DNA of 32,685 nucleotides, from contig CANJNJ010000052.1 of the NCBI GenBank assembly GCA_947474995.1, forward strand, positions 1-32,685, read 5' to 3'. Under the pieces are notes generated by a model. The model was not told the origin of the DNA. It searched no databases and saw nothing but the letters and a program-made list of their open reading frames with translations. Made by a program: the position numbers and the translations under genes. The DNA comes from Opitutaceae bacterium. GTDB taxonomy: Bacteria; Verrucomicrobiota; Verrucomicrobiia; Opitutales; Opitutaceae. Position 1 is the first letter of the stretch. Every line of letters begins with the position of its first letter. Positions 3,602 through 26,142 of this stretch are shown piece after piece.

Positions 3602-3770
3602 TGGGGGCTATTTTGCCGCGAAAAGAGATCGCGGTGTACGATGGAGCAGTCTGGGTCCGTGCACTTGTCGGCTTCCTCCGCGGAAAAGACCGGCGCCCCC
3701 GGCCGCGCGCTGGCGACGAACTGGGCCGGGACGAAGGCACCTGAGAACCGCGAAGGCGGCAGGGGGGCGG

Positions 3771-6700
3771 CTATGAAGCCGACGATAATTTCGCGCGCAA
3801 GTAAGGCGCGGTGGGACTGCCGCGGACTTTGAGCAGGCCAGCCAGCGGACCTTGATAAAGGAGTTCGCCACCGTCGGGACCGCCCACCGGGCCGAGTTCG
3901 ATTATGTAGTCGGCCTCCGCCAGGAGATCGAGATGGTGCTCAATCACGACGACCGTGTGGCCTTGGTCGACGAGGGAGTGCAGCACGCGGATGAGCTTTT
4001 CGCAGTCGCTCAGGTGCAGCCCGATGGTCGGCTCCTCAAGCAAATAGAAATTTCGCGGCCGCTCGCCGCGGCTGCGTTCCCGATAGGTGGCCAGGCCCGT
4101 CGAGAGCTCCGTGACAAGTTTCAGTCGTTGGGCTTCGCCGCCGGAAAGCGTGGGCGAACTCTGACCGAGCGTGAGGTAACCCAGGCCGCAATCGACCATG
4201 AGTTGGCAGACCTGGGAGAGCTGCGAATGAAAACTGAAGAACGTCGCGGCCTCCTCGAACGTCAGCTGCAGTACCTCGCCAATGTTTTTTCCCTTCCATC
4301 CGATGTCAGCAAGTTCGGCGCTGTACCGCGAACCGCGGCAATCGTCGCACGGCAGATAGGTGTCGGCCATGAACGCCATCTCGAGCTTGATCCGGCCGGC
4401 GCCCGAGCAGGTCGGGCAGCGGCCGCCGGCGGTGTTGAAGGAAAAGCGCGAGGCGGAATAGCCGCGGATTTTGGACTCCGGCAGCGAGGCGAAAAATTCC
4501 CGGATGATGTCAAAGATGCCCAGGTAGGTCGCGGGCGTGGAGCGCGGCGTCTTGCCGATGGGCGATTGGTCGACCTCGATCACTTGCTTGAAGCCATGGG
4601 CGCCGCGCAACTCGGTGAAGGGCGGTGGAGCGTTGAGGACGGAGAGTTGTGCGTCGGAAGAATCGAAACCCGTCGCCTTCACAAAAGTCCGGCCGGGGAG
4701 AAGGGGCTTTTGCGACGTGATGGCCTGCGCGATGGCGGGATTGAGGAGGTCGCGAAAGAGCGTGGATTTGCCCGCGCCACTCGCGCCCGCCACCATCACG
4801 AGGCGGCCGAGGGGAAAGCGGAGATCGAAGCCCTTGAGGTTGCGAAAGCGGGCGCCCTTCAACTCGAGCCACGTCCGTTTGGCTCCGGGCGACTCGAGCT
4901 GGCGGTATTCACCGCGCAGGGGGTGCGCGATGCCTTTGGCCAGGAAGACACCGGTGAGGGATTTCTGGCTGCGTTTGATCTCGGCGGGCGTCCCCATCAT
5001 CAGCAGTTCGCCGCCGTGGATGCCGGCACCGGGGCCGAGATCGATGATGCAGTCGGCCTGCTCCATCAGCCCCTCGTCGTGCTCAACCACGAGGAGCGTG
5101 TTGCCCTTTTCCCGCAGCGTGCGAAGCGTGGCAATGAGCTGATCGTTGTCGCGGGCGTGCAGTCCGATGCTCGGCTCATCGAGCACGTAGAGCACGCCCG
5201 AGAGATTGGAGCCGAGTTGCGCGGCCAGCCGGATGCGCTGGGCCTCACCGCCGGAAAGCGTTTCCGTTGGACGATCCAGCGAAAGGTAGGCGAGTCCCAC
5301 GTGGTCGAGGAATTTGAGCCGCTCGCTGATTTGTGGGACGATGTCCTGCACGATCAACCGGCCGCGCGCATCGAGCTTGAGCCGGGCCAGGTGAGTGAGG
5401 AGCTGGGAAGGCGTGCTGCGCAGTAATTCGGGCAGGGACAGCGCGACCGTTTGGCGGCCGCGGCCACGCACATTTAGTTTCACGGCCCGGCCGATCCGGT
5501 TGAGGCGCGCGCCGGCGCAGTCGGGGCACGACTGACCCTCTTCGGCGACCTCGTCGATGGAGGTGACCCCAAATTCGCGCAAGCGTACCGCGGGATCACT
5601 CTCGTCATCGTCCACCGGCTCGAGCATCCAGGGGAAAACGCGTCCGTGTCCACGGCAGGTCGGACACCAGCCGCGCGGCGAGTTGAAGGAGAAATTTTTC
5701 GGGTCGAGCTCGGGAAAACTCTCGCCGGTCTCGATGTCGGTGCGGGTCGTTGAAAACCACGACAGCACGTCGCCGAGCTCCGTCAGAAGAAAGCACGAAC
5801 CCTTGCCCAAACGAAGAGCGCTCTCAAGGGCGTCGTTAGGAGCGTTTAAGGTTTTAGGTTTAAGGGGTAAGGTCGGGGAAGCCCTCTTGCTTACCCCTAA
5901 AACCTTACTCCCTGAACTGGTCGTCGCCGACCGCAGGTCGGCGACGACGACCTCAATATCGTGCTCGCTGTGGCGATCCAGTTTTTGAAAGGCATCGACG
6001 CGGGTCAGCCGGCCGTCGGCCCGCATCAGTTCGTAGCCCTGGCGGCCAATCCAGGTAGCGATGGGCTGATGGTGGCCTTTGCGTCCGCGGATAAGGGGCG
6101 CGCAGAGGTAGAGATGGCGGGCGCGCCGGGCCTTGGGCGTGGCGAGCACGCGGGCGAGCAGCTGCTTGAGGGCCCCCGGGGAAAGCGGCGTGACCGGTCG
6201 ATCCGACTCGGGATGATGCTGAATGCCGAGGCGTGCGTAGAGGAGGCGGAGATACTGGGCGACCTCGGTGATCGTCGCGACCGTGGACTTGCGGGAACCG
6301 CGCGTGATGCGCTGTTCGATGGCGACGGTGGGCGGAATGCCGGTGATGCGATCGATCGCCGGGCGCGGCAGCTGCTCGACGAACTGCCGGGCATAGGACG
6401 ACATCGATTCCATGAACCGGCGCTGCCCCTCGGCGAAGACGATGTCGAAGGCGAGGGTGGACTTGCCGGACCCCGAGACGCCCGTGACGACGTTGAGCTG
6501 GCGGTGGGGAATCGAGAGGGAAAGATTCTTCAGGTTGTTCTCCCGCGCTCCGGTGATCACCAGAGCGCCGGTGGTGAGCGGCAGGGCCGATTGATAAGAC
6601 GCGGCCGCTTCGGCGGCGATGGGTTCCGCCGCGTCACCGTCCGAGTGACCCAGGGCCGCGCGCAGGAATGGCGAGGTCGCGGTGGTCGTCGCGGCGACGG

Positions 6701-9596
6701 ACTCGGGCGAACCCTCGGCGACGATGCGCCCGCCCTCGGCGCCGGCGTCGGGACCGATTTCGATCAACCAGTCGGCCGATTTCAGGACGTCGAGGTTGTG
6801 CTCGATGATGATCAGACTGTGCCCGCGCGCGACGAGCGCCTGCAGCACTTCGAGCAGCCGCTTCACGTCGTGCCGATGCAATCCCGTGGTCGGCTCGTCG
6901 AGTAAGAGGAGCGCGCCACCGGAATTCTGCAATTTGAGAGCTGAAATCTGCGATTCCTCGGCGACAAAGCCGCCGAGGTACCGGACGAGCTTGAGCCGCT
7001 GGGACTCACCGCCGCTCAGCGTATTCAGCGGCTGCCCCAGCGTCAGGTAGCCGAGTCCGACCGAATCGAGACTGCCGAGGCGTTTCCGGATTGCCGCGTG
7101 TGCGGCAAAAAGGGGAAGGGCATCCGCCACGCTGGTGGCCAGAAGTTCCGCCACGGATCGGCCATTCCACTGGATGGCGAGCACCTCGGGCTTGAAGCGA
7201 CGGCCCTCGCACACGGGGCACGGTACAAAGACGTCCGAGAGAAACTGCATTTCCACGCGCTCGTAACCGAGCCCGAGGCAATGGTCGCAGCGACCCTCCC
7301 CGCTGTTGAACGAAAAACTCGAAGGACTGAAGCCGGCCTCCTGCGCGGCGGGTGTTTCCGCGTAAAGTTCGCGGATGAGTTCCCACGCCTCGGTGTAGAC
7401 GGCCGGATTGGAGCGGGGCGTCCGCGAGAGCGGCGACTGGTCGACGAGGACAATCTCACTCAAGCCCTCGGCTCCGGTGATCGAGCCGATCGTGGCGGGA
7501 TCCTCCGTGAGTTGGAGGCGCTGCGTCAGCAGGCCCTGATAGATGACGTTGTCCAGCAGGGTCGACTTGCCGGAGCCGGACACGCCGCTGAGGCAGACAA
7601 AACGCTGGAGCGGGAGGCGGAAGGAAAGAGCGGTGAGGTTGTGTTTTGTGACACCCGTGAACGTGAGCCACTTCTGGGCGTCATTTTTGCCGGGCAACGC
7701 CACCGGGCGTCGTTGTGGTGGCAGACCGATCGTCTCGCGTCCCGAAAAATAGGCGCCGGTGATGCTGCGAGGCGCGATGAGCAGTTCTTCCACGGGGCCT
7801 TGAAACACGATGTTTCCGCCGCGGCTGCCGGGTTCGGGGCCGACTTCGATCACGTGATCGGCGGCGCGGATCATGGCCTCGTCATGCTCGACCACGACGA
7901 CGGTGTTACCCACATCCGCCAGCGTGCGGATGATGGCAATCAGGCGATTGATGTCGCGGGGATGCAGTCCCACGCTCGGTTCATCGAGGACGAAGAGCGT
8001 GTCCACGAGCGACGTGCCGAGGCAGCCGGTCAGGTTGACGCGCTGGACCTCGCCACCGGAAAGAGTTTTCGAGGTGCGGTCCAGCGTAAGATAGCCGAGT
8101 CCCACCTGCTCGAGATACCGCAACCGGGTGAGAATCGACTCGAACGCAATCGTCCCACTCCGCCCCTCGGTCGACCCCGCCGGTTTGTCATCTAATAGAT
8201 GACAAGTGGCGAGGCGCTGCAGGAAATCCGCGACGGGGAGCAGGTAGAGTTCGGGGAGGGTGAGGCCCTGCCATTGCCAACAGAGCGCTTCTGGTTGCAG
8301 ACGGCGTCCGCCGCAATCCGGACAAGGATTGTAGGCCCGATAGCGCGAAAGATAGACGCGCACGTGCATCTTGTAGGTGTTCTTTTCGAGCCACCGGAAA
8401 AAGCCCTTCAGTCCATACCAAAACTTGGGCCACGTTTTGCCATTTTCTTCGCCGTAGCCGGGCTCGCCGTCGATGACGTAGGTCTGCTGCTCCGACGTGA
8501 GCGAGGCGAAGGGAACGTCGGTGGGGATCTTTTTCTTCTTCGCAAAAACCAGCAGATCCTTCTTCGAGTCCCCGTAGACTTCGCTTTCCCAGCACTTGAT
8601 GGCTCCGTGATCGATCGAAAGGCCGTGATCGGGCATCGCGAGCCGGTAATCGATCTCAATGACCCGGCCGAAGCCCCGGCACTTCGGGCAGGCGCCGAGC
8701 GGCGAGTTGAACGAGAAGAGGGCCGGGGTCGCCGGCCGGAAAGTCCGGCCCGACTTCGGTGAACGCAGGCCGCGCGCGTGATGCCCGGTCTCGGCCAAAT
8801 GGCCGTCCGCGACCTCGCCAAAGCTGAAGACCTCGCCCTGCCCGAAGTGGAGCGCCGTTTCGGCGGCTTCGAGAAAACGGGCCTGGTTCGCCTCGGTCAG
8901 GGCGAGCCGATCCTGTACGACAAAAATATGCTCCGCGGTCTTGAGTTCCGCGGCGGGTTTCGCGCCGAGCAAATCGTCAATGCGGAACGCCTGGTTCCCG
9001 GTCTTCGCGGCGGGAACGAGGACGCGCGTGTAGCCCTGATTTTTGAGATTGGGGAGCATTTCCTCCCACGGCAGGCTCGCCGGGCGGCGGACGCGAAAGG
9101 CCAGGACGACGGTCGTTCCGGAAAGCGCGGCCCGCGCTTTCCGCCAGATGGACTGCGGATTGCCGTCTGCGATTTTTTCGCCGGTCTCGGGATCAAAGCA
9201 CTCCGCCACGTGGCTGAACCACACTTTGCAGTAGTCCGCCAGTTCGGTCATGGTCCCGACGGTCGAGCGCGAGGTCTTGACCGTGTTGGTCTGCTCGATC
9301 GCGATCGACGGCCGGATGTTCTCAATCGAGTCGACCTTGGGTTTGTCGAGGAGATCGAGAAACTGCCGCGTGTAAGCGCTGAAGGTTTCGACGTACCGGC
9401 GTTGTCCCTCGGCGTGGAGGGTGTCAAAAACCAGCGACGATTTGCCGGCCCCGCTCAGGCCGGTCACCGCGATGTACCCGCCCAGCGGCACGTCGAGATC
9501 GAAACCCTTGAGGTTGTTCTGGCGGACGCCGCGCAGGCGGATGCACTCAGGTCTGGTCGGTCGGGAAGCAGGAACGGACTTGGGCACCCGTCTCAC
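3771..9596 (-). CDS. uvrA: Double-length UvrA: tandem fusion with four ABC ATPase modules
   Basis: UvrA is the damage-recognition ATPase of nucleotide excision repair. A normal UvrA has about 940 residues and two ABC modules; this chain has about 1941 and is two UvrA units in tandem. Walker A motifs are GLSGAGKSS (about residue 46), GVSGSGKST (about 670), GVSGSGKST (about 1037) and GASGAGKST (about 1602). LSGGE signatures lie near 510, 858, 1445 and 1815. Each unit keeps the zinc modules (CPKC/CPDC and CDHC/CPVC; CPTC/CPDC and CPTC/CDDC) and a region where the UvrB-binding domain sits, closer to the standard form in unit 2 ([11 protein letters not shown]). The last Walker B reads YLLEEPT instead of LDEPT. 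Unit 2 contains an in-frame insertion of repeat-like DNA (5820-5950). The frame extends to TTG 9677, but that codon lies inside a hairpin; I chose GTG 9596 (GTG 9587 is also possible), just ahead of the conserved [17 protein letters not shown]. Similar long UvrAs are, to my recollection, known in Verrucomicrobia and Planctomycetes. Confidence 0.93.
5847..5907. repeat. AT-rich imperfect inverted repeat inside uvrA
   Basis: The left arm (5847-5871) reads TAAGGTTTTAGG, six extra bases, then GGGTAAG. The right arm CTTACCCCTAAAACCTTA (5890-5907) is its reverse complement apart from those extra bases. Base composition is far lower in GC than the surrounding gene. It is translated in frame as part of a loop insertion in the second UvrA unit, in the stretch [19 protein letters not shown]. 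The same kind of AAACCTAAAAC string occurs in the leuC-leuD spacer. Confidence 0.75.
5920..5948. repeat. Perfect hairpin inside uvrA, REP-like
   Basis: Arms of 13 bases (5920-5932 and 5936-5948) pair perfectly around a GCA loop; the left arm is GTCGTCGCCGACC. The outer ends TCGTCG/CGACGA are the same as those of the intergenic double hairpin at 15127-15189. It lies immediately next to the AT-rich inverted repeat and is translated as VADLRSATT. Confidence 0.8.
8185..8205. repeat. Short AT-rich perfect inverted repeat inside uvrA
   Basis: Arms TTGTCATCTA and TAGATGACAA flank a single A. It is translated in frame as CHLLDDK in a loop ahead of the first LSGGE motif. Its low GC stands out from the surrounding coding sequence. 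Confidence 0.6.
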
Positions 9597-9670
9597 GAAG
9601 TGAAGAGCGGAACGGAAGGCAACCCGATGCGCAAGAATACGGGCGCCGCCCGCGATCGGGCGAGGAGCCG

Positions 9671-9701
9671 GGCCCAAGTGAAAGGCGAAACGACTTGGGC
9701 C
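9671..9701 (-). terminator. Hairpin between deoR-type gene and uvrA
   Basis: The 9-bp arms GGCCCAAGT (9671-9679) and ACTTGGGCC (9693-9701) form a stem with a 13-base loop directly after the regulator stop codon. There is no T-run on the minus strand, so it may slow or protect transcripts rather than end them. It overlaps the TTG at 9677 that would otherwise be the longest uvrA start. Confidence 0.45.
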
Positions 9702-15227: not shown

Positions 15228-16970
15228 TCACCGCCGCTTGCGGAAGGGCGCGGCGCTGCGCGAGGTCGGCAACACTCCTTCGGCGGCCATTTCTTTTACG
15301 AGGCCGGTGAGATACGGGATCAGCTGCTTTTTGCGGCTGACGATGCCGGGCAGGTCGAAGATTTCGTTCTGCTCGACGTGGGGATAAGTAATCCGGCGGA
15401 TTAACTCCGGATCGCCTTTGACGATGAGGAGCGAGTTTTGGGTGTTGATGTCGGTGATCAGGAGCGCGGCAAAGAAGAGACGTTCGTCTTCGCGCAGATC
15501 GGCCACGGCCTCGGTGATGGGCTTCGCGTGCTGCCAGAAATTGCCAAAGCCGAGTTCCTCCACCTGCGACACCGCGAAGCGGAGGCCCTCTTCTTCGTAA
15601 ATCTTGAAATCCGAGCGTACGACCTTCTCGGGCGGACTCGCGAGGATGACGGAACCCGAATTAAAGATTTCATCGGCGAGTTGCTTGGAGGCCACCCCGG
15701 CGATCTCGGAGAGCCAGGCCAGGAGGATGGCGTCCTTGCCCGTCGCGGTCGGGCCGTTCAGATGCAACGTGTCGGAGATTAATCCGGACATCATGATCCC
15801 GGCAATGGAGGGCGAAGGCTGCAGCCCGTCGCGGCGAAAGAGGTCCGCGACGATAGTGCAGGTCGAGCCCACGGGCTCGTTGATGAAGAGAATGGGCTGC
15901 GCGGTCTGGACGGCTCCGAGGCGGTGGTGGTCGATGATCTCGACGATGGTGACTTCCTCGGCGCCGGGAACCGCCTGCGTGAGTTCGTTGTGGTCGACCA
16001 GGACCAGCCGCACGGGGGGTGGCTTGAGTACGTCGGTCTTGGTGAGAAATCCAATCAACGTGCCGTTGTCTGACGTCACCGGGTAGGCGTGGATCGTGCC
16101 GGAGGAGAATTTTTTTCGCACGTCGGCGATCCGGGTGTCGGCACTCAAGGTGGCGACATCGCGCTCGATGATGTGCTCGATGGTCGAGGCCGTGCGGACG
16201 ACCCACGACGTCGTGGCGGAGTCGTAGGGGCTGACAATCAGGCTGACGCCTTTGGCGCGGGCGAGCGCGAGCGTGTCATCGTCGACGGCGAGATCGCTCG
16301 TGATGACGAGGGCGCGAATGCCGAGCTCGATGGCGCGATGCTGGATGTCGCGGCGATCCCCGACGATGATGATGGCCTGGGACGCGGGGATGCTTTCGCG
16401 GATGGAAACGCTCCAGAAGGAACGAATATCCATCGTGCCGAGGCGGACAAAGAGCTGCTCAATTTTTTCCTCGCCCACGAGGTGCAGCGGGCGGGCGTGA
16501 AGCGCCCGCGTAATATGGGCGAGCGACGTGGTGACCTGCCGCATCGTGCGGGGATCGCTGACCCGGGGAATGAAGACGCCGCCGAGGGCCGAAAGGGAGA
16601 CGACTCCGACGACGACCCGATCGGCCGACGTGACGGGGAGCACGCGGATGTGGTGGCGATCGATGATCTCGAGCGCTTCGGCACAGGTGGCGGTTTCCGA
16701 AACGGAAATGACTTCCGTGGCCATCATGTCGCGCACCCGGGGCGATACGTCCGTGAGGTAGTAGGGCAGGGGCTGGCGGAACCGGGCGAGAATGGTGTCG
16801 ATCCGCGCGTTGGAGTTGCCGCAGCGCGCCGCCATGAAACCCTTTTCGCCGCGCGCCTCCTTGTAGGCGGCATAGGCGATCGCCGAGCAGATCGCGTCGG
16901 CGTCGGGATTCTTGTGCCCGACGACAAAGGTGGTCTGGCCGGGCAAGCCGGAGGGCGCGGAGGCAGTCAT
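15228..16970 (-). CDS. ppaC: Family II inorganic pyrophosphatase with CBS-DRTGG-CBS regulatory insert
   Basis: It hydrolyses pyrophosphate to two phosphates in the cytosol, with Mn2+ or Co2+ as preferred metal. Domains over 580 residues: DHH part 1 with GHKNPDADAICSA (residues 18-30), first CBS domain (about 77-130), DRTGG-like segment (about 160-250), second CBS domain (about 265-320), DHH part 2 with LVDHNE and EIIDHHRLG, and the DHHA2 domain ending in the SRKKQ substrate motif. The insertion between LPYYLTDVSP and DHN is the arrangement of the CBS-PPases, known to be inhibited by AMP/ADP and activated by ATP or diadenosine polyphosphates. ATG 16970 begins just ahead of the conserved fold. 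The gene is alone on its strand here, about 50 bases after the prepilin terminator. Confidence 0.93.
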   Translation of the reverse strand: MTASAPSGLPGQTTFVVGHKNPDADAICSAIAYAAYKEARGEKGFMAARCGNSNARIDTILARFRQPLPYYLTDVSPRVRDMMATEVISVSETATCAEALEIIDRHHIRVLPVTSADRVVVGVVSLSALGGVFIPRVSDPRTMRQVTTSLAHITRALHARPLHLVGEEKIEQLFVRLGTMDIRSFWSVSIRESIPASQAIIIVGDRRDIQHRAIELGIRALVITSDLAVDDDTLALARAKGVSLIVSPYDSATTSWVVRTASTIEHIIERDVATLSADTRIADVRKKFSSGTIHAYPVTSDNGTLIGFLTKTDVLKPPPVRLVLVDHNELTQAVPGAEEVTIVEIIDHHRLGAVQTAQPILFINEPVGSTCTIVADLFRRDGLQPSPSIAGIMMSGLISDTLHLNGPTATGKDAILLAWLSEIAGVASKQLADEIFNSGSVILASPPEKVVRSDFKIYEEEGLRFAVSQVEELGFGNFWQHAKPITEAVADLREDERLFFAALLITDINTQNSLLIVKGDPELIRRITYPHVEQNEIFDLPGIVSRKKQLIPYLTGLVKEMAAEGVLPTSRSAAPFRKRR

Positions 16971-17069: not shown

Positions 17070-17903
17070 TTACGGACCACGAGCGGCCGCGGTTCCGGCG
17101 GCCCGACCGAGAATCGTGCCGGCGCCGGGCCCGGTGGGAGGAATGCCAAAGATAAAGCCGGCGACGGGAATGGCCTGCTGCACGTTGTTTGTCTTCCGCG
17201 CGCTGTTGTTTGAGGTGAAAATCCCGGCCGTCGCGTTGGCGCCAGCGTTGCTGTAGAAAGCGACATTGCCACCGAGAAAGCCGATGTAGCCGCCGGAATC
17301 CTTATAGGTCCCGCTGGTGAGGCTCCAGGTGCCGTTGGTCTGAAGTCCGCGAGTCCAGGCGATCGGCGTGGCCGGAGTGTCGCTCATCTTGAGCCCGCTG
17401 GCGAACTCCCAGGCGAGCGACTTGCCGGTCATGCTCGGATCCAGAGTGCGCTTGGTGGCGTCGGTGGTATTGATAATGGAAACGGGATAGACCCCGGCGA
17501 AAAACGGATCGGTCTTGGAAAACCAGAACGTGGGATCGGTCAGGATGCCGCTCCGGGCGAGGATGCCCGGCCAAAGCAGGGCCTGGGTGGCGTTGGTCAG
17601 CGTGGTGGCGGGAATCGTGCGCGGGTTGGGCAGCTGATCGTTGTTCTCGCCGGCGTAGATTTGGGCGGCTTTGACGATTTCGCGCAGATTGTTGCCATCG
17701 ACGGCGCGCTGCGCCTTGTCGCGGGCGGAACCGACCGTCGGAATCACAATGGCCGCGAGGATTCCGATGATCGCGATGACCGTCAGCAACTCAATCAGCG
17801 TAAAGCCGCCTGGGCTCGGGCGGGCGGACGGGGTGCCGAGTTTAACTCGGCTGCCAGAGGCAAACTTGCGGGAAGGGGAGACGCGACTTGATGGGATTCG
17901 CAT
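17070..17903 (-). CDS. Prepilin-like protein with type IV N-terminal methylation motif
   Basis: A 277-residue pseudopilin-like protein. A long basic leader of 33 residues ends in PSPGG, then comes FTLIELLTVIAIIGILAAIV, the class III signal with cleavage G33/F34 and Glu at +5. The prepilin peptidase PilD would cut and methylate it, and the hydrophobic helix would anchor it in the inner membrane or a pseudopilus. The mature part has SARDKAQR...NLREIVKAAQIYAGENND, then a C-terminal GGYIGFLGGNVAFYSN that resembles the H-X9-DG region of planctomycete/verrucomicrobial pseudopilins but lacks the His and Asp. The gene is solitary: no pilus assembly genes adjoin it. It starts at ATG 17903, diverges from ilvE and ends at a strong terminator. 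Confidence 0.9.
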   Translation of the reverse strand: MRIPSSRVSPSRKFASGSRVKLGTPSARPSPGGFTLIELLTVIAIIGILAAIVIPTVGSARDKAQRAVDGNNLREIVKAAQIYAGENNDQLPNPRTIPATTLTNATQALLWPGILARSGILTDPTFWFSKTDPFFAGVYPVSIINTTDATKRTLDPSMTGKSLAWEFASGLKMSDTPATPIAWTRGLQTNGTWSLTSGTYKDSGGYIGFLGGNVAFYSNAGANATAGIFTSNNSARKTNNVQQAIPVAGFIFGIPPTGPGAGTILGRAAGTAAARGP

Positions 17904-18038
17904 GTTAAGAAGTTAGGGGCAGGCAGCTGGGAGAGACGCGGCAAACGCCGAGACAGTTTCGGCGAAAAATGTCGGGCACAAGCAGATTATCCTGCCGCGG
18001 GCTCGACAAAACTTTTTTTGCACCCCTAGGCTGGGGGA
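17904..18038. promoter_or_regulatory. Divergent promoter region between prepilin and ilvE genes
   Basis: These 135 bases must hold promoters for both directions. On the minus strand a GATAAT hexamer (about 17980-17985) could be a -10 box for the prepilin gene, though no -35 stands at 16-18 bases. On the plus strand TCGACA (18003-18008), 18 bases, then TAGGCT is a weak candidate for ilvE, followed closely by GGGGGA before the ATG. Neither match is strong. Confidence 0.35.
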
Positions 18039-18905
18039 ATGAAGATTTATCTCGACGGTAAGTTCGTCGACCGCAACGACGCCAAGGTTTCCGTGTTTGA
18101 CCACGGCCTGCTCTACGGTGACGGCGTCTTTGAGGGTATTCGTCTCTACGGAGGGAACATCTTCCGCCTCGAAGAGCACCTCGAGCGGCTCGAGTATTCG
18201 GCCAAGGCCATCATGCTCCAGCTGCCGTTGACCCGGGCGCAGTTTAGCGAGGCGACCTGCGAAACCTGCCGTCAGAACGGCCTGACGGATGCCTACATTC
18301 GGCTGGTGGTCACCCGCGGCGTCGGCGACCTCGGCCTGGCGCCATGGTCCTGCCCGACTCCCACGGTCTTTATCATTGCCAGCAAGATATCCCTCTACCC
18401 GGCCGAGCACTACGAGAACGGCCTGGCCATCGTCACGGTACCGACACGCCGCATCAATGCCGCGGCGTTGCCGCCGACGATCAAGTCGTTAAACTACATG
18501 AACAACATCCTCGGCAAGATCGAGGCCCGCCAATTTGGAGCCTTGGAGGCAATCATGCTCAACGATCAGGGCTACGTGGCAGAGTGTACCGCCGACAATG
18601 TGTTTATCGTACACAAGGGTGAACTCCTGACTCCAGGGGCGTCCCAGGGGGCGTTGAAGGGCGTGACGCGTTCAACGATTTTTGATCTGGCGAAAGAGCT
18701 TAATGTGCCGATTAGGGAAACCAACATGACGCGCTATGATATCTGGTGCGCGGACGAATGTTTCCTTACCGGGTCCGGCGCCGAGGTAATACCGGCGGTG
18801 AAGCTGGACGGCCGCGAAATCGGCACGGGTCGCCCCGGGCCGATCACGCAGCGCGTGCTGGCGGCGTTTCGCAAACGCGTGCTGGTCGAAGGCACCCGCA
18901 TCTAA
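18039..18905 (+). CDS. ilvE: Branched-chain amino acid aminotransferase (class IV)
   Basis: A PLP enzyme that transfers the amino group between glutamate and the 2-oxoacids of Leu, Ile and Val in the cytosol. It has 288 residues, the compact form of the fold-type IV family. Visible motifs: DHGLLYGDGVFEGIR near the N-terminus (substrate-site loop), the PLP lysine K149 in TIKSLNYMNNILGKIEA, EAIMLNDQGYVAECTADNVFIV with the PLP-holding Glu/Asn, and GVTRSTIFDLA. D-amino acid aminotransferase and ADC lyase share this fold; the full EGIRxY and LNY pattern favours IlvE. ATG 18039 follows GGGGGA at very short distance. The leucine genes leuC and leuD lie 12 kb away on the same strand. A TAATG junction couples the stop to a 37-codon open frame. 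Confidence 0.9.
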   Translation: MKIYLDGKFVDRNDAKVSVFDHGLLYGDGVFEGIRLYGGNIFRLEEHLERLEYSAKAIMLQLPLTRAQFSEATCETCRQNGLTDAYIRLVVTRGVGDLGLAPWSCPTPTVFIIASKISLYPAEHYENGLAIVTVPTRRINAAALPPTIKSLNYMNNILGKIEARQFGALEAIMLNDQGYVAECTADNVFIVHKGELLTPGASQGALKGVTRSTIFDLAKELNVPIRETNMTRYDIWCADECFLTGSGAEVIPAVKLDGREIGTGRPGPITQRVLAAFRKRVLVEGTRI

Positions 18906-19018
18906 TGGCCGGCCGAGGCGCCGCGACTTCCGGCGCTCGCGCGCTCAAGTTTTTGCGGCGCGTCACGATTGCACCCTTGGCGCAGGTCAACGGGTTCTTT
19001 CGGCGCAGGCGGGGATAG
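18905..19018 (+). CDS. Possible small ORF coupled to ilvE stop
   Basis: A 37-codon frame starts at the ATG of a TAATG overlap with the ilvE stop codon and ends with TAG 19016-19018. The peptide is basic (MAGRGAATSG..., ending NGFFRRRRG). Third positions are GC-rich, like the genes nearby. No family is recognised. The stop-start overlap suggests translational coupling, but such overlaps arise often by chance. Confidence 0.25.
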   Translation: MAGRGAATSGARALKFLRRVTIAPLAQVNGFFRRRRG

Positions 19019-19060
19019 AACATGCCCGCACTTGCCAGCGTGGAACTCTGTGGCATGTTC
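19018..19060 (+). promoter_or_regulatory. Spaced inverted repeat in the mcsA upstream region
   Basis: Perfect 9-base arms GAACATGCC (19018-19026) and GGCATGTTC (19052-19060) are 25 bases apart and lie 26 bases ahead of the mcsA ATG. They could be a two-site operator or the stem of a leader hairpin. It does not match the CtsR direct repeat (GGTCAAA) or the HrcA CIRCE element. Confidence 0.5.
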
Positions 19061-19085
19061 CGGGCAACACTCTTTTCTTAATTCC

Positions 19086-19592
19086 ATGGCCAACCCGCTG
19101 AAATGCGACCTTTGCTCCAAGCCCGCGACGGTGCACCTAACCCAAATCGTGAACAACAAGGTTCACAAGGTGGACCTGTGCGAAGCCTGTGCCCAAGCCA
19201 AAGGGGTGACGGACCCGAGCGGATTTTCGCTGGCCGATTTGTTGCTGAAGGCCTCGCTTAACCCCGAGGCGACGGCGGCGGGTGTGCGCTGTGAACACTG
19301 CGGCTTCACGCAGAACGACTTCAAGAAACACGGTCGCTTTGGCTGCCCGCTTTGCTACGAGACCTTCCGCGTCCTGGTCGAACCGATGCTCGAGAACATG
19401 CACCACGGCATCACGCACACGGGAAAGATCCCGCACCGGGCCCTCGAACGGAAAACCCTTTATGACCGGCTGACCAAGCTCGAGTTGGACCTGTCGGACG
19501 CCATCAAATCCGAGCGCTACGAAGACGCTGCCCGCACCCGCGATGAAATCAACCAAGTCAAACAAGCGGTCACCCCGAAGCTCACGCGCTGA
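19086..19592 (+). CDS. mcsA: McsA-like activator of protein arginine kinase
   Basis: In Bacillota McsA is the zinc-binding partner that activates the arginine kinase McsB and links it to ClpC. This protein has 168 residues. It has four Cys pairs making two zinc-binding units: C7/C10 with C32/C35, and C69/C72 with C87/C90. The C-terminal UVR motif (about residues 128-163) includes KLELDLSDAIKSERYEDAAR and RDEINQVK, the helical hairpin also found in UvrB, UvrC and ClpC. ATG 19086 starts directly ahead of the first zinc finger, though no clear Shine-Dalgarno precedes it; the open frame further upstream runs through the inverted repeat. mcsB begins four bases after its stop, so the two are surely co-transcribed. 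Confidence 0.92.
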   Translation: MANPLKCDLCSKPATVHLTQIVNNKVHKVDLCEACAQAKGVTDPSGFSLADLLLKASLNPEATAAGVRCEHCGFTQNDFKKHGRFGCPLCYETFRVLVEPMLENMHHGITHTGKIPHRALERKTLYDRLTKLELDLSDAIKSERYEDAARTRDEINQVKQAVTPKLTR

Positions 19593-19596
19593 CGCC

Positions 19597-20688
19597 ATGA
19601 CGATCTCGTCACTCATCGACTCCCCGTCCGAGCTGACTGATTCGACGAGCAGCAAGTCCGCCATCGTCCTGATGACGCGGGTGCGCTTGGCGCGAAATCT
19701 CACGGGTTTTTCGTTTCCCGGTTGGGCCAAGCCCGGGCAGCGTGAGGAAATTCTCGCAACCTGCCGCACGGCCGTGACCGCGACGCCGCAGATGAAACGC
19801 TGCTTCAATGTGGGGATCGGCGAATTGTCCGAGCTGGAGAAACAAATCCTGGTCGAGCGCCATCTCATCAGCCGCGAACTGAGCGGAGCCAAGGCGGGCG
19901 CCGGCGTCGTGATTAGCAAGGATCAGGCGTTTTCGGTGATGATGAACGAGGAGGATCACCTGCGTATTCAGGTCCTGCGGTCGGGCTTCCAGCTCAAGAA
20001 GGCCTGGAACGCGATCAACGACTTTGATTCGACCCTCGAGGAACACCTCGACTTCGCGTTTTCCCCGGCGCTCGGCTACCTCACCGCGTGTCCCACCAAT
20101 TTGGGCACGGCCATGCGGGCCTCGGCCATGATGCATTTGCCGGCGCTGGTGATTTCGAACCAGATGGAGAAAGTGGTGCGCGCCGTGAACCAACTCGGGA
20201 TGGTGGTGCGCGGACTGTTCGGGGAGGGCTCGGATGCCAGCGGCAGTATCTTTCAGATTTCCAACCAGACCACGCTCGGCGAGTCCGAGGAGGGCATCAT
20301 CAAGCGGCTCGGCAGCGTGCTGCAGTCGATCATCGAACACGAAGTCAACGCGCGCCAAAAGCTGCTGGAGGCGGACGCGGGCAAGCTGCTCGACAAGGTG
20401 GGTCGCGCTTACGGTATTCTCCAGAACAGCCATCTGCTAAGCTCGGGCGAGGCCATGAACCTGTTGTCCCTGATCCGCCTCGGCATCGACCTGGGCGCGT
20501 TCTCCGATTCGTATCGCTCCATGATCGATCGGCTCTTTATCGAAGCCCAGCCGGGGCACCTCCAGCACACGCAAAAAAGCGAGATTGAGCCCGGCAAGCG
20601 GGACGTGCTCCGGGCTGCCAGACTGCGTTCCGAGTTTGCCAATTTCGTCCGACCCGATTTTAATTTCACCCTGAACGGCAACAACTGA
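19597..20688 (+). CDS. mcsB: Protein arginine kinase McsB
   Basis: McsB phosphorylates arginines on damaged or misfolded proteins, marking them for ClpC-ClpP. It has 363 residues, the normal length, and a guanido-kinase catalytic domain. Visible elements: nucleotide-binding VLMTRVRLARNL, the NEEDHLRIQ loop with its catalytic Glu, CPTNLGTAMRASAMMHLP with the reactive C165 (C167 in Bacillus subtilis), GLFGEGSDASG and SNQTTLGESEEGII. The C-terminal domain carries RDVLRA at 335-340, the RDxxRA motif that binds phosphoarginine allosterically. There is no separate N-terminal domain as in eukaryotic arginine or creatine kinases. ATG 19597 lies four bases after the mcsA stop; upstream in-frame codons overlap mcsA. 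clpC follows after 21 bases. Confidence 0.95.
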   Translation: MTISSLIDSPSELTDSTSSKSAIVLMTRVRLARNLTGFSFPGWAKPGQREEILATCRTAVTATPQMKRCFNVGIGELSELEKQILVERHLISRELSGAKAGAGVVISKDQAFSVMMNEEDHLRIQVLRSGFQLKKAWNAINDFDSTLEEHLDFAFSPALGYLTACPTNLGTAMRASAMMHLPALVISNQMEKVVRAVNQLGMVVRGLFGEGSDASGSIFQISNQTTLGESEEGIIKRLGSVLQSIIEHEVNARQKLLEADAGKLLDKVGRAYGILQNSHLLSSGEAMNLLSLIRLGIDLGAFSDSYRSMIDRLFIEAQPGHLQHTQKSEIEPGKRDVLRAARLRSEFANFVRPDFNFTLNGNN

Positions 20689-20709
20689 TCTGACTTTTAT
20701 ACCCATCAC

Positions 20710-23235
20710 ATGTCGCAGGAACCGATGAACAACTTTACGCCCCGCGCGCAGCAAGTGCTCCAGTTGGCCCGCAAGGAAGCGGACCGCTTCCACCACAATT
20801 ATGTGGGCACCGAGCACATCCTGCTGGGGTTGATCAAATTGGGCCAGGGGGTGGCGGTCAGCGTCCTGCAGAAGATGGGGCTCGACCTCGAGACCGTCCG
20901 TTCGGCCGTCGAAAAGCAGGTGGGCACGGGCCAGGAAACGAAGACGCAGAACAGCATTCCTTACACGCCGCGCGTGAAAAAAGTCCTCGCGCTGGCCGGC
21001 AAGGAAGCGAAGACGCTCAATCATTCCTACGTCGGTACGGAGCATATCCTGCTCGGACTCCTGCGCGAAGGCGAGGGCGTGGCGGCGCGGGTTCTCAAGT
21101 CGCTGGACATTGATATCGAACGGACGCGAAACGAAATTCTGCGGGAATTGGATCCGCAGTTTTCCGGCAGCCAGGGTGGCGAAGGCGGCGAAGAAGCGAC
21201 GGCGGGCAACCCGCAGCGCCCCGGCGCCCAGCCCGAGGACAAAAAGGAAGTGAAGACGCCCGCCCTCAAGGCGTTTGGTCGGGATCTCACGGAACTCGCC
21301 CGCAAGGGGGAGATGGACCCGGTGGTCGGCCGCAAAAACGAAATCCGGCGGGTCATCCAGATTCTCTGCCGCCGCACGAAGAACAACCCGGTCCTCATCG
21401 GTGAAGCCGGGGTCGGCAAGACGGCGATCGTCGAAGGCCTCGCGCAGGAAATTGCCGCCGGCAACGTCCCCGAAATTCTTTTCGAGAAAAAAGTCATCAC
21501 GCTGGATCTCGCGCTGATGGTCGCCGGCACGAAGTACCGTGGACAGTTCGAAGAACGCATCAAGGCGGTGATGGACGAGATCAAGCGGGCGAAGAACATC
21601 ATCCTCTTTATCGACGAATTGCACACCATCGTCGGAGCCGGGGCCGCCGAGGGCGCCATGGACGCATCCAACATCTTCAAACCCGCCCTGTCCCGCGGCG
21701 AACTCCAGTGCGTGGGGGCCACGACACTGAATGAATACCGGAAGTACATCGAGAAGGACTCGGCGCTCGATCGTCGGTTCCAGTCGGTGAAGGTCGAGGC
21801 GCCGTCGGTCGACGACACGATCCTCATCCTGAAGGGCATCCGCTCGAAGTATGAGGATCACCACAAGGCGACGTTCTCGGACAAATCACTCGAGGCCGCC
21901 GCGAAGCTTTCCGACCGGTATATCACCGGTCGCTTCCTGCCCGACAAGGCCATCGATGTGATGGACGAGGCGGGGTCGCGGGCCCGCATCAGCGCGCTCA
22001 GCCGGCCGCCGGATATCGAAAGCCTGACGAAGGAGATCGAGGCGATCTGCGCCCAGAAGGAAAAAGCCATCAGCGAGCAGCACTTCGAGGAAGCGGCGAA
22101 ATTCCGCGATCAGGAAAAGCAGCTGCGCCTGAAACAGGAGCAAATCACCGAGCAGTGGAAAAAGCAGCGCGACGAGAAGCGCATCGCGATCGACGAGGAT
22201 CTGATGATGCAGGTCGTGGCCGACTGGACCGGCATCCCGATGAACCGGATGGAGAAAAAGGAGAGCGAGAAGCTGCTCGCGCTCGAAGGTGAACTCCAGA
22301 AGGCCGTCATCGGTCAGGAGATTGCCGCCAGTGCCATCGCCCGGGCGCTCAAGCGCTCGCGCGCGGATCTCAAGGATCCGCGCCGGCCCATTGGTTCGTT
22401 CATGTTTGTCGGTCCGACCGGCGTCGGCAAGACGATGCTCGCGAAGCAACTCGCCGCGCAGATTTTCGGCAACCAGGACGCGATCATCCAGATCGACATG
22501 TCCGAGTACATGGAGAAGTTCGCGGTTTCCCGACTGGTCGGCTCGCCTCCGGGCTACGTCGGCTACGAGGAAGGCGGCCAGCTCACCGAGTCCGTCCGGC
22601 GCAAGCCCTACGCCGTGGTGCTTTTCGACGAAGTCGAAAAGGCGCACCCGGATGTCATTCAATTGCTGTTGCAGATCCTGGAGGATGGGCGCCTGACCGA
22701 TTCGCTGGGCCGCACCGTGGATTTCCGCAACACGATCATCATCATGACGTCGAATGTCGGGGCTGCGCTGCTGCAACGGCAGACGTCGATGGGGTTTGCC
22801 GCTGCCGGTTCCAGTTTCAACGACGCGGAAAAGATGCGCGAGAAGGTGCTCGAGGAGGCCAAGCGGGTGTTCAAGCCCGAGTTCCTCAATCGCATCTCGG
22901 ACATTGTCTTCTTCCGGCCGCTGGATCGGAACGACTTGACCAAGATCGTCGAGCTCGAGCTCGCGAATTTCGTCAAACGGATCAGCGAGCGGAAGATCGC
23001 GCTCGAGTTCGCCCCCGAGGCCAAGGAGCTCTTCATCGAGAAGGGCTACGACGAAAAATATGGCGCGCGTCCGCTCCGGCGGGCGATCGAGCATTATCTC
23101 GAGGATCCCCTCGCCGAGGCGCTCCTGCGCGGCGAGGTCAAGGACGGCGAGCCCTGCCTGGTGACGCGCGATGGGGACAAGATTGTCTTCAAGCAGAAGA
23201 CGCCGCCGACGACTCCGAGCAATGTGACGCTGTAG
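20710..23235 (+). CDS. clpC: ClpC, AAA+ unfoldase of the Clp protease
   Basis: ClpC unfolds tagged proteins and feeds them to ClpP. This 841-residue chain has a double Clp-N domain (about 8-75 and 83-150), AAA-1 with Walker A GEAGVGKT (231-238) and [12 protein letters not shown], a UVR-containing middle domain (about 447-480), and AAA-2 with Walker A GPTGVGKT (568-575), [12 protein letters not shown] and [17 protein letters not shown]. The short middle domain separates it from ClpB. MGF (694-696) is in the place of the ClpP-docking loop. Aligned by eye to Bacillus subtilis ClpC, both phosphoarginine pockets are kept: T10/V16/E35 and T86/K90/E111. A 40-residue Gly/Glu-rich linker joins the Clp-N domain to AAA-1. 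ATG 20710 gives the expected N-terminus. It is the last gene of the mcsA-mcsB-clpC block. Confidence 0.96.
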
Positions 23236-23265
23236 CCTTGGCGAGCTGGCCGTGGCTTTAATCGA

Positions 23266-23300
23266 CCCTGTGTCCCGAATTTTCAGGGCACGGGGTTTTT
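23266..23300 (+). terminator. Intrinsic terminator after clpC
   Basis: CCCTGTGTCC (from 23266) pairs with GGGCACGGGG (23286-23295), ten pairs with two G-T, followed by TTTTT (23296-23300). It is placed correctly to end the clpC transcript, but it stops only four bases before the next start codon and contains the only GGGG that could act as that gene's ribosome binding site. Confidence 0.75.
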
Positions 23301-23304
23301 CCGG

Positions 23305-25116
23305 ATGAAAAGATGGGTGGCCGCCTCGTGTTTTTTGGCGGTGGCCGCGGCTGCCGCCGCGCAAGGCCTGCGGCTGCCGGAAGCCGAGGTGCTGCTGCCC
23401 CCGACCCTCCAGCGCTTGGCGGCGATTCAGGCGGCGGCGCAGCGTGATGGCTGGGCGCCGCAAACAGCGGGACTGCGCGCCGCGGCCAACCGCGCCTACG
23501 AACGCGAAAAGCTCGGTGCCGCGGAAGCGTGGTTCCTCGTGTACCGTTGGTCGGAGCTTTTCGGCCAACCCGAAAGTGTATTCTTGCCCAAATGGGTAAA
23601 GGCCGTGGAAGCGGCTAAGGTGGCGAATCCGAACATGCCGTCGCACTACCCGGCTGGCCCCAAGCCGCTCGGGGCCGCGCTGGCGCCGGAGCTCCAGGGC
23701 TGGCTGATCGGGAACACGCCTTTTTCCCAGGAGTTTTTCGCGTTGCTCAGTCCCGTCGATTACCTGCCGAACGTCTTCGGAATTCTCAACGCGCTGTACC
23801 TGCCGGACTCGGCCCGTTTCAAAACCTACGCCAACCTCGCGCTGGCGATTGCGGTGGTCTACGACGTCGCTCCGCCGCCCATTTGGCCGCACGGCCAGGT
23901 CACGGCCGAGGCTTTGCCGCGGAAACTGCCAGTGCCGCTGAGCGCCTTCACTTGGTGGATCAAGCAGGAGCAACTGGGGAAGACCTACCACCGGTTGTCG
24001 CGGCTGGGGGCCGACGAACTTCGTTTTGTGGTCGATGCGGCGGCGCCCCTGGCCGAACTCGAATGGTCGCAGGGGGTCGCGGACTATCCGCTCAGTGCCC
24101 TGGCCCAGGCGTATACGATGATTCGGTACCGCAACGATCGCGTGGCCAACGCCCGCCCCGTGTGGCCGGGACGCACCTACAAGCTGCCGGAAATTCTTTC
24201 CGCGGGCGGCATCTGCGCGGACCAGGCTTATTTTGCCACGCAGGTGGGGAAAGCCCGTGGCGTGCCGACGCTACTCATCTACGGGGCGGGCAATGACGGC
24301 CGCCACGCGTGGTTCGGCTACCTCGATGGCAATCAGAAATGGCAGCTCGATGCCGGTCGCTACGCGGAGCAAAGATTTGTCACGGGATTTGCCCGCGACC
24401 CGCAGACGTGGCGGGAATTTTCCGATCATGAATTAAAATTTCTTTCGGAGCGCTTTCGCGAACTACCCGCTTACCGGCAGTCCCGCGTCCACGCGGAATT
24501 CGCGGCCGATTACCTGGCCGCCGGGCAGTTCCCGGCGGCGGCGGCGGCGGCCCGCCGCGCGGTGACCTTGGAACGGCGCAATCAGCCGGGCTGGGAACTT
24601 CTCCTGGCGGCGGCGAAAGCGGAGGGCCGGGACGCAAAGACTATCGAGAATCTCCTGCGCGAAGCCGCGCTGGCGTTTCAACGCTACCCGGATCTGGAGG
24701 CCTTTTACGTGAATCGTACCGCTGAGAGCCTGCGGGGCCGCGGGCAAACCAGCGAGGCCGATGCGGAAGTGCGGCGGATCGCCATGCAGAACAAGAGCAC
24801 CCGGATTGACCTCAGTGTGCAGCAGAGCCGGGACCTCGTGCTCCGCGCCATGGCCACACAGCCGCTCGCCGAGCAAATTCGCACCTATAATTCCGTGGTC
24901 GACATGTACGGCCACGACGCAGGCATCGGATTTGTTGACGAGGTGGTGACGGTCTTCGTGGAGCACCTCCTGCAACTGCAGCGAACGGCGGAAGCCACCA
25001 GCGCCATTGAGCGCGCGCGCCGCACGTTGAAGGTGGAGGCGAACAGCCAGCTCGAATCGGAATTCACGCGATTGCGAAACGAAGTGAAAGTTCCGCGGGG
25101 TCGTGCGGGTGGTTAA
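23305..25116 (+). CDS. Exported transglutaminase-like (papain-fold) protein with helical repeat tail
   Basis: A 603-residue protein with an N-terminal signal peptide (MKRWVAASCFLAVAAAAAAQG). The middle holds a transglutaminase-like triad: C304 in SAGGICADQAYFA, H334 in GRHAWFGYLDG and D349 in WQLDAGRY. Such domains outside the cell act as peptidases, amidases or cross-linkers; the substrate is unknown. The region from about 390 onwards is alpha-helical and Ala-rich, with TPR-like stretches (EFAADYLAAGQFPAAAAAAR, LVLRAMATQPLAEQIRTYNS), though no clean TPR consensus is visible. The hydrophobic signal begins right at ATG 23305, supporting that start, despite its placement directly behind a terminator-like hairpin. 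The next gene is convergent, about 125 bases away. Confidence 0.8.
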   Translation: MKRWVAASCFLAVAAAAAAQGLRLPEAEVLLPPTLQRLAAIQAAAQRDGWAPQTAGLRAAANRAYEREKLGAAEAWFLVYRWSELFGQPESVFLPKWVKAVEAAKVANPNMPSHYPAGPKPLGAALAPELQGWLIGNTPFSQEFFALLSPVDYLPNVFGILNALYLPDSARFKTYANLALAIAVVYDVAPPPIWPHGQVTAEALPRKLPVPLSAFTWWIKQEQLGKTYHRLSRLGADELRFVVDAAAPLAELEWSQGVADYPLSALAQAYTMIRYRNDRVANARPVWPGRTYKLPEILSAGGICADQAYFATQVGKARGVPTLLIYGAGNDGRHAWFGYLDGNQKWQLDAGRYAEQRFVTGFARDPQTWREFSDHELKFLSERFRELPAYRQSRVHAEFAADYLAAGQFPAAAAAARRAVTLERRNQPGWELLLAAAKAEGRDAKTIENLLREAALAFQRYPDLEAFYVNRTAESLRGRGQTSEADAEVRRIAMQNKSTRIDLSVQQSRDLVLRAMATQPLAEQIRTYNSVVDMYGHDAGIGFVDEVVTVFVEHLLQLQRTAEATSAIERARRTLKVEANSQLESEFTRLRNEVKVPRGRAGG

Positions 25117-25242
25117 GGCCGGCCACGAACGGCCCAAAGCCGGTCCGACGGACGCGGCCGGGCTAAAACCTAATTGCCGGTAAACACCGTTCACCCGGGC
25201 TTCCGTTTGTCGGAGGCGATGCCCGAAGGTCGCCTGTGCCCG

Positions 25243-26142
25243 TCAGGCCCCGGCGACCGCCAAGAAGGCCGCCAGTGGCGGTTCCGGCTCCGGCGGCTGG
25301 CGCCAGCCCAGCACGAGCCGGCTTTCCGGCGCGGGCCCGCTGAGCGGGCGAAACGTGACCTCGGGCGGCAAGTGCTGCGCTTCCGAGGGCGTCATGAACG
25401 TGGCACCGAGTCCGGCGCGGACCAAGCCGATGCCATTCGCGCGCGGCCAGATCTCCTCGGCGATGCGGGGTGTGACCCCCACAGCCGCAAAGGCCGCGAG
25501 GATGCGATCATAAAAACCGGGGTTGTGGGCACGCGGAAAGAGCACGAAGGGCGTGGCCGCCAGCTCGCGCAAGCGCAACTTGGCGCGTCGCGCCAGCGCG
25601 TGCGTGGCCGGCAGCAGCACGCCGTTGCGTTCGCGCAAAAGCACCCGGGTCCGCAGTCCGGGGGTGGGTGCGTCGGGATGGAAAAACCCGCAGCCCAACT
25701 CGCCGGATTGCAACGCCACCAACTGCACCGAGGTGGGAGACTCCGTGAGTTCAAGGCGAATGCCCGGATGACGCTGGTGAAACTCCCGGAGGATGCGGGG
25801 CAGGACCGTTGCCATGGCCAGACCCGTGAAAGCGACGCGGACGCGGCCCGTCTGGCCGCCGGCGAGTGCTTGCAGGTCAGCCGGGATGGCGGCGAGACCC
25901 CGCAAGAGGGGCTCACTCTGCTCGAGCAGGAGGCGGCCGGCGGCCGTGACTTCCACGCCCCGGCGGGTGCGATTGAGCAGGTCGGCGTCGAGGGCGGTTT
26001 CCAGTTGCGCGATGGCGCGGCTGAGTGCCGGCTGGGCGATCGCGAGCGTTTCGGCGGCTTTCCGGAAATGCAGCTGGCGGGCGACCTCCCGGAAGTAAAC
26101 CAGGTGGCGCAGTTCAAAAGGGAATTGATACTCCCGCGGCAT
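25243..26142 (-). CDS. LysR-family transcriptional regulator
   Basis: A 299-residue regulator. Residues 9-67 form the LysR winged HTH: LRHLVYFREVARQLHFRKAA, then IAQPALSRAIAQLE, LNRTRRGVEVTAAG. The remainder is the periplasmic-binding-protein-like effector domain (GRVRVAFTGLAMATVLPRIL, GELGCGFFHPD, RAGLGATFM). The HTH is close to the CatM/BenM/TfdR-type subgroup, which usually activates catabolic genes on binding a small organic acid; this is a family-level inference. ATG 26142 was chosen over an in-frame GTG immediately before it. It is the last gene of the glycosyltransferase-lyase-transporter cluster on the minus strand, separated by 63 bases with two hairpins, so it is likely to regulate that cluster or be expressed with it. 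Confidence 0.92.
   Translation of the reverse strand: MPREYQFPFELRHLVYFREVARQLHFRKAAETLAIAQPALSRAIAQLETALDADLLNRTRRGVEVTAAGRLLLEQSEPLLRGLAAIPADLQALAGGQTGRVRVAFTGLAMATVLPRILREFHQRHPGIRLELTESPTSVQLVALQSGELGCGFFHPDAPTPGLRTRVLLRERNGVLLPATHALARRAKLRLRELAATPFVLFPRAHNPGFYDRILAAFAAVGVTPRIAEEIWPRANGIGLVRAGLGATFMTPSEAQHLPPEVTFRPLSGPAPESRLVLGWRQPPEPEPPLAAFLAVAGA

Follow-up and report, generated by a model that had tools for sequence, protein, structure and literature searches.

Phosphorylation of protein arginines by the kinase McsB has been presented as a Gram-positive system (PMC8370763), and its spread to other phyla has been called unclear (PMC9604228); mcsB genes of Verrucomicrobiota and Chlamydia are already in print. 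In Chlamydia trachomatis, ClpCP2P1 degrades arginine-phosphorylated casein and not plain casein, and a mixed ClpP1P2 core is needed (PMC10128030). For Methylacidiphilum on formic acid, a transcriptome study reports mcsB up 3.21-fold and a neighbouring clpA homologue up 2.26-fold, with groEL and dnaK also up (PMC8024496). Here we describe an ilvE-mcsA-mcsB-clpC cluster on a contig of an Opitutaceae bacterium (CANJNJ010000052.1, analysed over its full 32,685 nucleotides (nt) and hereafter called the window), in whose genome no profile match to the repressor CtsR was found. We consider it probable, with good confidence, that the locus encodes an ordinary McsA–McsB–ClpC(P) quality-control system, inherited within the Verrucomicrobiota and under CtsR-independent control.

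The cluster and its gene products

The host genome comprises 5.24 Mb in 261 contigs and is 96% complete; the window is its contig C52. McsB shares 83% identity with an uncultured Opitutae and 81% with an Opitutaceae assembly, which agrees with the position of the window among Opitutaceae-type rows in the McsB tree and confirms the verrucomicrobial host that an earlier reading of the letters alone (the sequence-only reading) had thought probable. ilvE, mcsA, mcsB and clpC follow one another on the + strand, the last three all intact:

18039..18905, + strand: ilvE, class IV branched-chain aminotransferase (NF006185 432 bits, cut-off 363; TIGR01122 over cut-off; PF01063 E 6.5e-59)
19086..19592, + strand: mcsA, activator of protein-arginine kinase (four CxxC pairs, UVR motif, match to 8wtb chain B)
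19597..20688, + strand: mcsB, protein-arginine kinase (PDB, Pfam and NCBIfam matches; Cys165; RDVLRA 335–340)
20710..23235, + strand: clpC, two-ring AAA+ unfoldase (Clp_N repeats, UVR-type middle domain, ClpP-type loop)

ATG codons at 19086, 19597 and 20710 open mcsA, mcsB and clpC, the clpC stop codon ends at 23235, and the genes are separated by 180 nt (ilvE–mcsA), 4 base pairs (bp; mcsA–mcsB) and 21 bp (mcsB–clpC). The gene identities, the order behind ilvE and every residue named in the sequence-only reading are present in the sequence.

The top PDB matches of McsB are protein-arginine kinases (E 9.7e-86 and 1.8e-83), to which residues 19–347 align at 44–45% identity; the catalytic domain PF00217 scores 224 bits, and NCBIfam NF002194, ‘protein arginine kinase’, 397 bits, above its cut-off of 385. 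The reactive cysteine is C165 in LTACPTN (C167 in Bacillus), and the C-terminal phosphoarginine receptor RDxxRA is RDVLRA at residues 335–340. Every aligned McsB row has the catalytic cysteine, and almost every complete row has RDxxRA; one mcsB was found in the host genome. Planctomycetal McsB proteins (L149, L155, L156 and L160) carry Asn in place of the Asp of this receptor in 4 of 4 rows. Residues 7–162 of McsA align to 8wtb chain B, an activator of solved structure (E 3.5e-24); the McsA gene adjoins mcsB, and its four CxxC pairs lie at 7, 32, 69 and 87, followed by a UVR motif at 128–160. The numbering given for McsB, the four McsA pairs and the six ClpC pocket residues in the sequence-only reading was exact.

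ClpC matches Bacillus ClpC over residues 7–826 (E 3e-288), with Clp_N repeats, a middle domain, two AAA rings with two Walker A/B pairs and an MGF loop at 694. The residues of both phosphoarginine pockets, T10/V16/E35 and T86/K90/E111, are all present, and in 102 Verrucomicrobiota-and-remaining rows nearly every pocket is kept. The sequence-only reading had staked its case partly on the presence of clpP, and the host genome holds two copies, one of them in tig-clpP-clpX (loci at C39/L051 and C22/L052; tig and clpX named by eye); ClpP was found in 19 of 19 genomes.

Gene linkage was read in 80 named loci, the best 80 of 585 confirmed and thus biased towards relatives of the window, which span Opitutales, Chthoniobacterales, Verrucomicrobiales, subdivision 3, Kiritimatiellae, Omnitrophota, Planctomycetota and two Paenibacillus; we use the record names, some apparently mislabelled (L120, L146 and L101 group with Verrucomicrobiota in the McsB tree). 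In this set mcsA closely precedes mcsB in 74 loci (it does not in 3, and contig ends leave 3 undecidable), clpC lies close after mcsB in 60 (17 not, 3 undecidable; positions extrapolated from partial matches where needed) and ilvE close before mcsA in 53 (21 not, 6 undecidable). The ilvE linkage holds for all seven loci named Omnitrophota (five) or Planctomycetes–Verrucomicrobia–Chlamydiae (PVC) group (two) and for 46 of the 67 remaining loci (16 not, 5 undecidable), but for none of the four planctomycetal loci and not for the single Paenibacillus locus that could be decided. Among loci holding both genes, ilvE and mcsA are at most 50 nt apart, and often overlap, in 23 of 91 Verrucomicrobiota-and-remaining loci and 3 of 7 Omnitrophota or PVC loci, a hint of co-transcription in these; for the closest relatives (McsB at least 77% identical) the gap measures 105–524 nt. 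The ilvE-mcsA-mcsB-clpC cluster is thus conserved in many Verrucomicrobiota and Omnitrophota loci. The earlier remark that ilvE lies upstream was correct, with the amendment that ilvE belongs to a widely conserved cluster and is not a chance neighbour.

CtsR searches and the element before mcsA

No profile match to CtsR was obtained in the host genome, and across 288 genomes of the phylum the CtsR model gave one weak, partial match (G067), which we rejected, the protein being an AraC-family regulator. Among 40 named genomes carrying mcsB, the model matched both Paenibacillus and none of the 38 others. A tblastn search with two Paenibacillus CtsR queries placed ctsR in the upstream flank, its expected place before mcsA, in 24 of 25 loci from Bacillota (58 genomes of the Paenibacillus phylum matched, and the best 25 were taken). 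It found no match in the non-Bacillota members of 206 loci, some of which are not mcs loci and whose flanks are of limited length. These Paenibacillus genomes (2/2 for CtsR), together with 58 of 61 genomes of the same phylum matching McsB by protein search, served as positive controls in place of 14 control genomes, among which PF05848 (CtsR) matches Lactococcus only and PF00217 none. The Bacillus subtilis genome in that set does match the ClpP, HrcA and low-molecular-weight phosphatase families and, with neither McsB nor CtsR matched although B. subtilis is known to carry both genes, may have the relevant stretch missing or masked.

Tandem heptads form the CtsR operator, and such sites occur in the window at chance level (5 found against 3.88 expected), so that neither ctsR nor operators above chance mark a CtsR (class III heat-shock) regulon. 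HrcA was matched in none of 19 genomes including the host, with the B. subtilis control matching, and hence HrcA/CIRCE (controlling inverted repeat of chaperone expression) control was not recognized; the proteobacterial heat-shock sigma factor RpoH (sigma-32) model TIGR02392 reached its cut-off of 323.1 bits in 0 of 19 genomes, the best host protein scoring 170. The absence of ctsR from the head of the cluster, where ilvE stands instead, is therefore borne out at genome level, and because ctsR is absent we accept the earlier proposal that control differs from CtsR–McsB switching. With neither CtsR nor HrcA found, we propose that transcription would be set by a CtsR-independent promoter, for which the following candidate lies directly before mcsA:

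19028..19068, + strand: conserved promoter-like element (conserved among close relatives; function putative)
19032-19037, + strand: -35-like box TTGCCA, 16-nt spacer to the -10-like box
19054-19059, + strand: -10-like box CATGTT
19033-19037 and 19051-19055, + strand: dyad TGCCA/TGGCA, overlapping the -35/-10-like boxes
19062-19066, + strand: GGGCA block

Of 27 loci whose McsB is at least 77% identical (one genome counted twice, L063 and L082 having the identical element), 25 carry the pattern CTTGCCAG-N12-TGGCATnnT before mcsA; the exceptions are L084, which reads CTTGCCC and has one extra spacer position, and L068, whose right side reads TTGCAT. It lies about 50–57 bp upstream of the mcsA start codon (122–126 bp in L008 and L028), in an ilvE–mcsA spacer that is otherwise little conserved among close relatives. 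All 24 aligned elements have A as the second and T as the sixth letter of the right box, CATnnT, with the spacing constant at 16 nt, though the pattern used to pick these elements already fixes most invariant letters, the A among them, and leaves the T free. L084 and L068 (outside the pattern) and L063 (the repeat) are omitted from the alignment, and L059 from one comparison. Remoter relatives keep, by eye, only the skeleton, as in L026 (TTGCGT-16-TATCCT). A sigma-70 consensus scan of positions 17500–25500 returned no site at 9 of 12 matches, and the element itself counts 8 of the 12; it is conservation, not consensus, that carries the promoter reading. Two boxes at constant spacing with A2 and T6 constant fit a sigma-70-type promoter.

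The element looks gene-specific. Its core, CTTGCCA-N12..14-TGGCAT, has one exact match in the host genome, at mcsA. Of 13 same-genus genomes, 12 have it at mcsA, and one more match (G003:C105) occurs among them; in two genomes of the same order, G013 and G015, the single match lies away from mcsB. The reversed pattern, used as a control, matched five times in the 13 same-genus genomes. A wider regulon was looked for and none is visible at this stringency.

Transcription by sigma-54 offers another explanation, with TGGCATG-N4-kTGCA as a -24/-12 promoter. The -24 GG is invariant, a feature nearly fixed by the selection pattern, and the -12 GC occurs in 18 of 24 elements. The GC is the most constrained pair of sigma-54 promoters, yet it is missing in 6 of the 24, whereas the sigma-70-type A2 and T6 are kept in all 24 at 16-nt spacing. 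Data from C. trachomatis are in line with sigma-54: mcsA falls 2.27-fold on sigma-54 knock-down, and mcsA and mcsB fall 2.71- and 3.93-fold on a double sigma-28/sigma-54 knock-down, mcsB having no entry there for sigma-54 alone (PMC10597470). On balance we hold sigma-54 transcription improbable and favour a sigma-70-type -35/-10 promoter within a conserved dyad element of 30–40 bp: the element is probably the mcsA promoter, probably overlapped by an operator, and the dyad is perhaps bound by a regulator.

Predicted phosphoarginine marking and erasure, and ancestry

By analogy with Bacillus, McsB, switched on by McsA, would phosphorylate arginines of unfolded or targeted proteins; the ClpC N-domain would bind this mark, and ClpC–ClpP would degrade the marked protein. 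Such a cycle is likely, since the residues match those of the Bacillus counterparts and two ClpP are present; enzymatic activity, phosphoarginine-dependent degradation, transcription as an operon and use of the promoter are predictions from sequence. The chamber-type regulation of McsB may differ from that of Bacillus, for the arginine R194, which when autophosphorylated clamps the closed B. subtilis octamer, is Lys here. Of 28 Bacillota rows, 14 have Arg here, as do 3 of 139 Verrucomicrobiota-and-remaining rows (repeats of the same genomes included; rows L164, L162, L163, L204, L193 and L194 omitted). The substitution R194K is reported to destabilize the B. subtilis McsB octamer (PMC8370763).

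At the fifth position of the phosphatase P-loop (PX5), Thr is phosphoarginine-selective and Ile phosphotyrosine-selective (PMC8001253). The host genome encodes two PF01451 proteins, one with CTANICRS (Ile), beside glyA, and one with CTGNSCRS (Ser), arsenate-reductase-like. Among 13 of 42 PF01451 matches read, both host proteins included, a Thr-type loop (CTGNTCRS) occurs only in L041 (G018, same order), and all seven glyA-linked loci read CTAN(I/V)CRS. In the host the CTANICRS gene lies at G000:C31 (L049) 3338-3868, directly before glyA, near which B. subtilis ywlE also lies; the glyA-linked phosphatase may be a YwlE ortholog with altered specificity. The Ser-type protein sits at G000:C53 (L050) 804-2752 in an apparent arsenic cluster with a small helix-turn-helix regulator and an Acr3-like transporter (both named by eye). 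An eraser unrelated to the YwlE type is possible. Because both low-molecular-weight phosphatases lack the Thr of arginine phosphatases, the sequence-only reading was too strong in calling the block ‘complete’.

Several observations weigh against the reading we prefer. McsB scores 386 bits against the Bacillus-type equivalog NF053707 (cut-off 500) and McsA 124.8 against NF053706 (cut-off 210); the octamer-clamp arginine is Lys; 17 of the 77 decidable named loci lack a clpC close behind mcsB; and 54 of 288 genomes of the phylum have only a weak kinase-domain match and 14 none. No recognisable arginine phosphatase was found, neither of the genome’s two PF01451 proteins having the YwlE/PtpB Thr. 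The literature searched yielded no activity data for a free-living verrucomicrobial McsB, and the chaperone activity of chlamydial ClpC was not raised by added B. subtilis McsAB (PMC10128030). Finally, a gene absent from 261 contigs at 96% completeness may sit in a gap, although CtsR is also missing across the 288 genomes.

A rival idea is that the kinase is present and arginine phosphorylation is not used for degradation, McsA and McsB having another role and ClpC reading other signals. The lack of an arginine phosphatase signature would suit it, as would the conservation of the ClpC pockets in mycobacterial ClpC1, structures of which retain the same phosphoarginine-pocket residues; no McsB homologue is known in mycobacteria (PMC9604228). 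The linkage of mcsAB to clpC in 60 of 77 decidable loci and the requirement of chlamydial ClpCP for arginine-phosphorylated casein in vitro (PMC10128030) oppose it, and we give this separate role little chance. Pocket conservation is, for the same reason, not diagnostic of a working phosphoarginine pathway: the claim that mark, activator and reader look functional stands as far as the residues go, and goes too far where it rests on the ClpC pockets. Phylum, genes, residues and ctsR-less control in the sequence-only reading are otherwise supported.

Turning to ancestry, PF00217 is matched in 274 of the 288 genomes, strongly in 220 (E about 2e-50 or better) and weakly in 54 (4e-43 to 2.5e-5), so that intact kinases may number fewer than 274; by protein search, 29 of 29 relatives match McsB. 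A search of viral contigs with a single protein query, reaching close relatives only, found no McsB. The cluster does lie outside Bacillota, as had been pointed out, and is not exceptional in a phylum where the kinase domain is so widespread (weakly in those 54) and mcsB already published. Within genus g34 the match is strong in 12 of 22 genomes (E 4.1e-59 or better) and weak in 10 (4e-43 to 5e-6), and in family f29 (g62) weak in 10 of 10; these weak matches are possibly decaying or pseudokinase McsB.

Horizontal transfer of the cluster from Bacillota, with ctsR lost on the way, could account for the shared mcsA-mcsB-clpC order, and horizontal acquisition has been suggested for chlamydial mcsAB (PMC10128030). 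In a quick, unrooted McsB tree of 113 rows (L115, L145, L147 and L159 omitted), however, the 28 Bacillota rows are set off together by a single branch (Shimodaira–Hasegawa-like approximate likelihood-ratio test (SH-aLRT) 100), as are the four Planctomycetota rows, and the window falls within a starred set of five Opitutaceae-type rows. Verrucomicrobiota mostly group by order, the Omnitrophota and PVC rows need three changes, and Bacillota attach on the Omnitrophota/Planctomycetota side, not inside Verrucomicrobiota. An equally quick, unrooted ClpC tree (83 rows, several long branches; loci omitted where the clpC match begins beyond residue 60 or covers fewer than 251 residues) agrees, uniting 26 Bacillota rows (SH-aLRT 100); both trees were built without chlamydial sequences. 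Together with the breadth of the kinase in the phylum and an ilvE linkage common to Omnitrophota and not seen in the one decidable Paenibacillus locus, this makes transfer a distinctly poor explanation. Recent transfer is unlikely because both trees keep Bacillota as a separate branch, the outcome of a check that the sequence-only reading had proposed; the trees being unrooted, they leave room for a very ancient one.

Least probable of all is that the element acts as RNA, through a thermometer or attenuator hairpin in the leader of mcsA. TGCCA/TGGCA can pair and the leader of the window folds at -19.4 kcal/mol, yet 27 of 200 shuffled sequences fold as well (z -1.17), which is chance level; none of the 5 pairs has changed in a compensatory way over 23 sequences (all five invariant), and Rfam gives no match, leaving an RNA role without support.

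Inheritance under a CtsR-independent promoter can be extended, tentatively and with less than even confidence, to a joint picture in which ilvE-mcsA-mcsB-clpC without CtsR would be ancestral on the Verrucomicrobiota/Omnitrophota side, the phosphoarginine degradation mark would predate CtsR, a regulator or sigma-54 would act on the dyad-bearing mcsA promoter, the eraser would be of a non-YwlE kind and chlamydial mcsAB would be an inherited, split-up remnant.

Elsewhere in the window, a 1,968-residue protein (3771-9677, - strand), in which the UvrA interaction stretch and the ATPase region each occur twice, is apparently a tandem fused, double-length UvrA; chlamydial UvrA is likewise double-length. 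A DHH-DHHA2 protein with CBS and DRTGG domains (15228-16970, - strand) has the make-up of a regulated family II pyrophosphatase.

Comparison with described systems

Our literature search combined McsB, McsA and phosphoarginine with Verrucomicrobia, Chlamydia, Planctomycetes and Akkermansia, used no ilvE term and left subscription papers mostly outside; among the papers and passages it listed we met no account of the ilvE-mcsA-mcsB-clpC cluster, of a phylum-wide lack of ctsR or of the element. What is new here is the promoter-like element before mcsA.

Chlamydia is usually placed in the PVC group. C. trachomatis resembles the window in having McsA/McsB, ClpC and two ClpP paralogues (PMC10128030, PMC11708050; compared through these papers, not through sequences), but its mcsAB stand apart from clpC, which the window’s adjoin. 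Horizontal acquisition of chlamydial mcsAB was suggested there because tRNAs flank the genes (PMC10128030); given the wide presence in Verrucomicrobiota, inheritance is the simpler guess. In Methylacidiphilum, too, a verrucomicrobial mcsB (Minf_0242) adjoins a clpA homologue of ClpA/ClpC type (Minf_0241), in a passage on expression only, from a paper whose text contains neither CtsR nor McsA (PMC8024496).

The phylum offers non-pathogenic hosts in which to test the role of the system without CtsR, its best-known target, to look for the regulator and the phosphatase that take over, and to ask if the system of Chlamydia is ancient or was borrowed. Set beside ctsR-mcsA-mcsB-clpC of B. subtilis and other Bacillota, the window shares the gene order, the catalytic cysteine, RDxxRA, a CxxC/UVR activator, the ClpC pockets and ClpP; it differs in that ctsR is missing with ilvE in its place, in a separate promoter-like element, in Lys at McsB R194 and in that no Thr-type low-molecular-weight arginine phosphatase was found. 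The cluster is an ordinary possession of its phylum and a regulatory variant of a known system.

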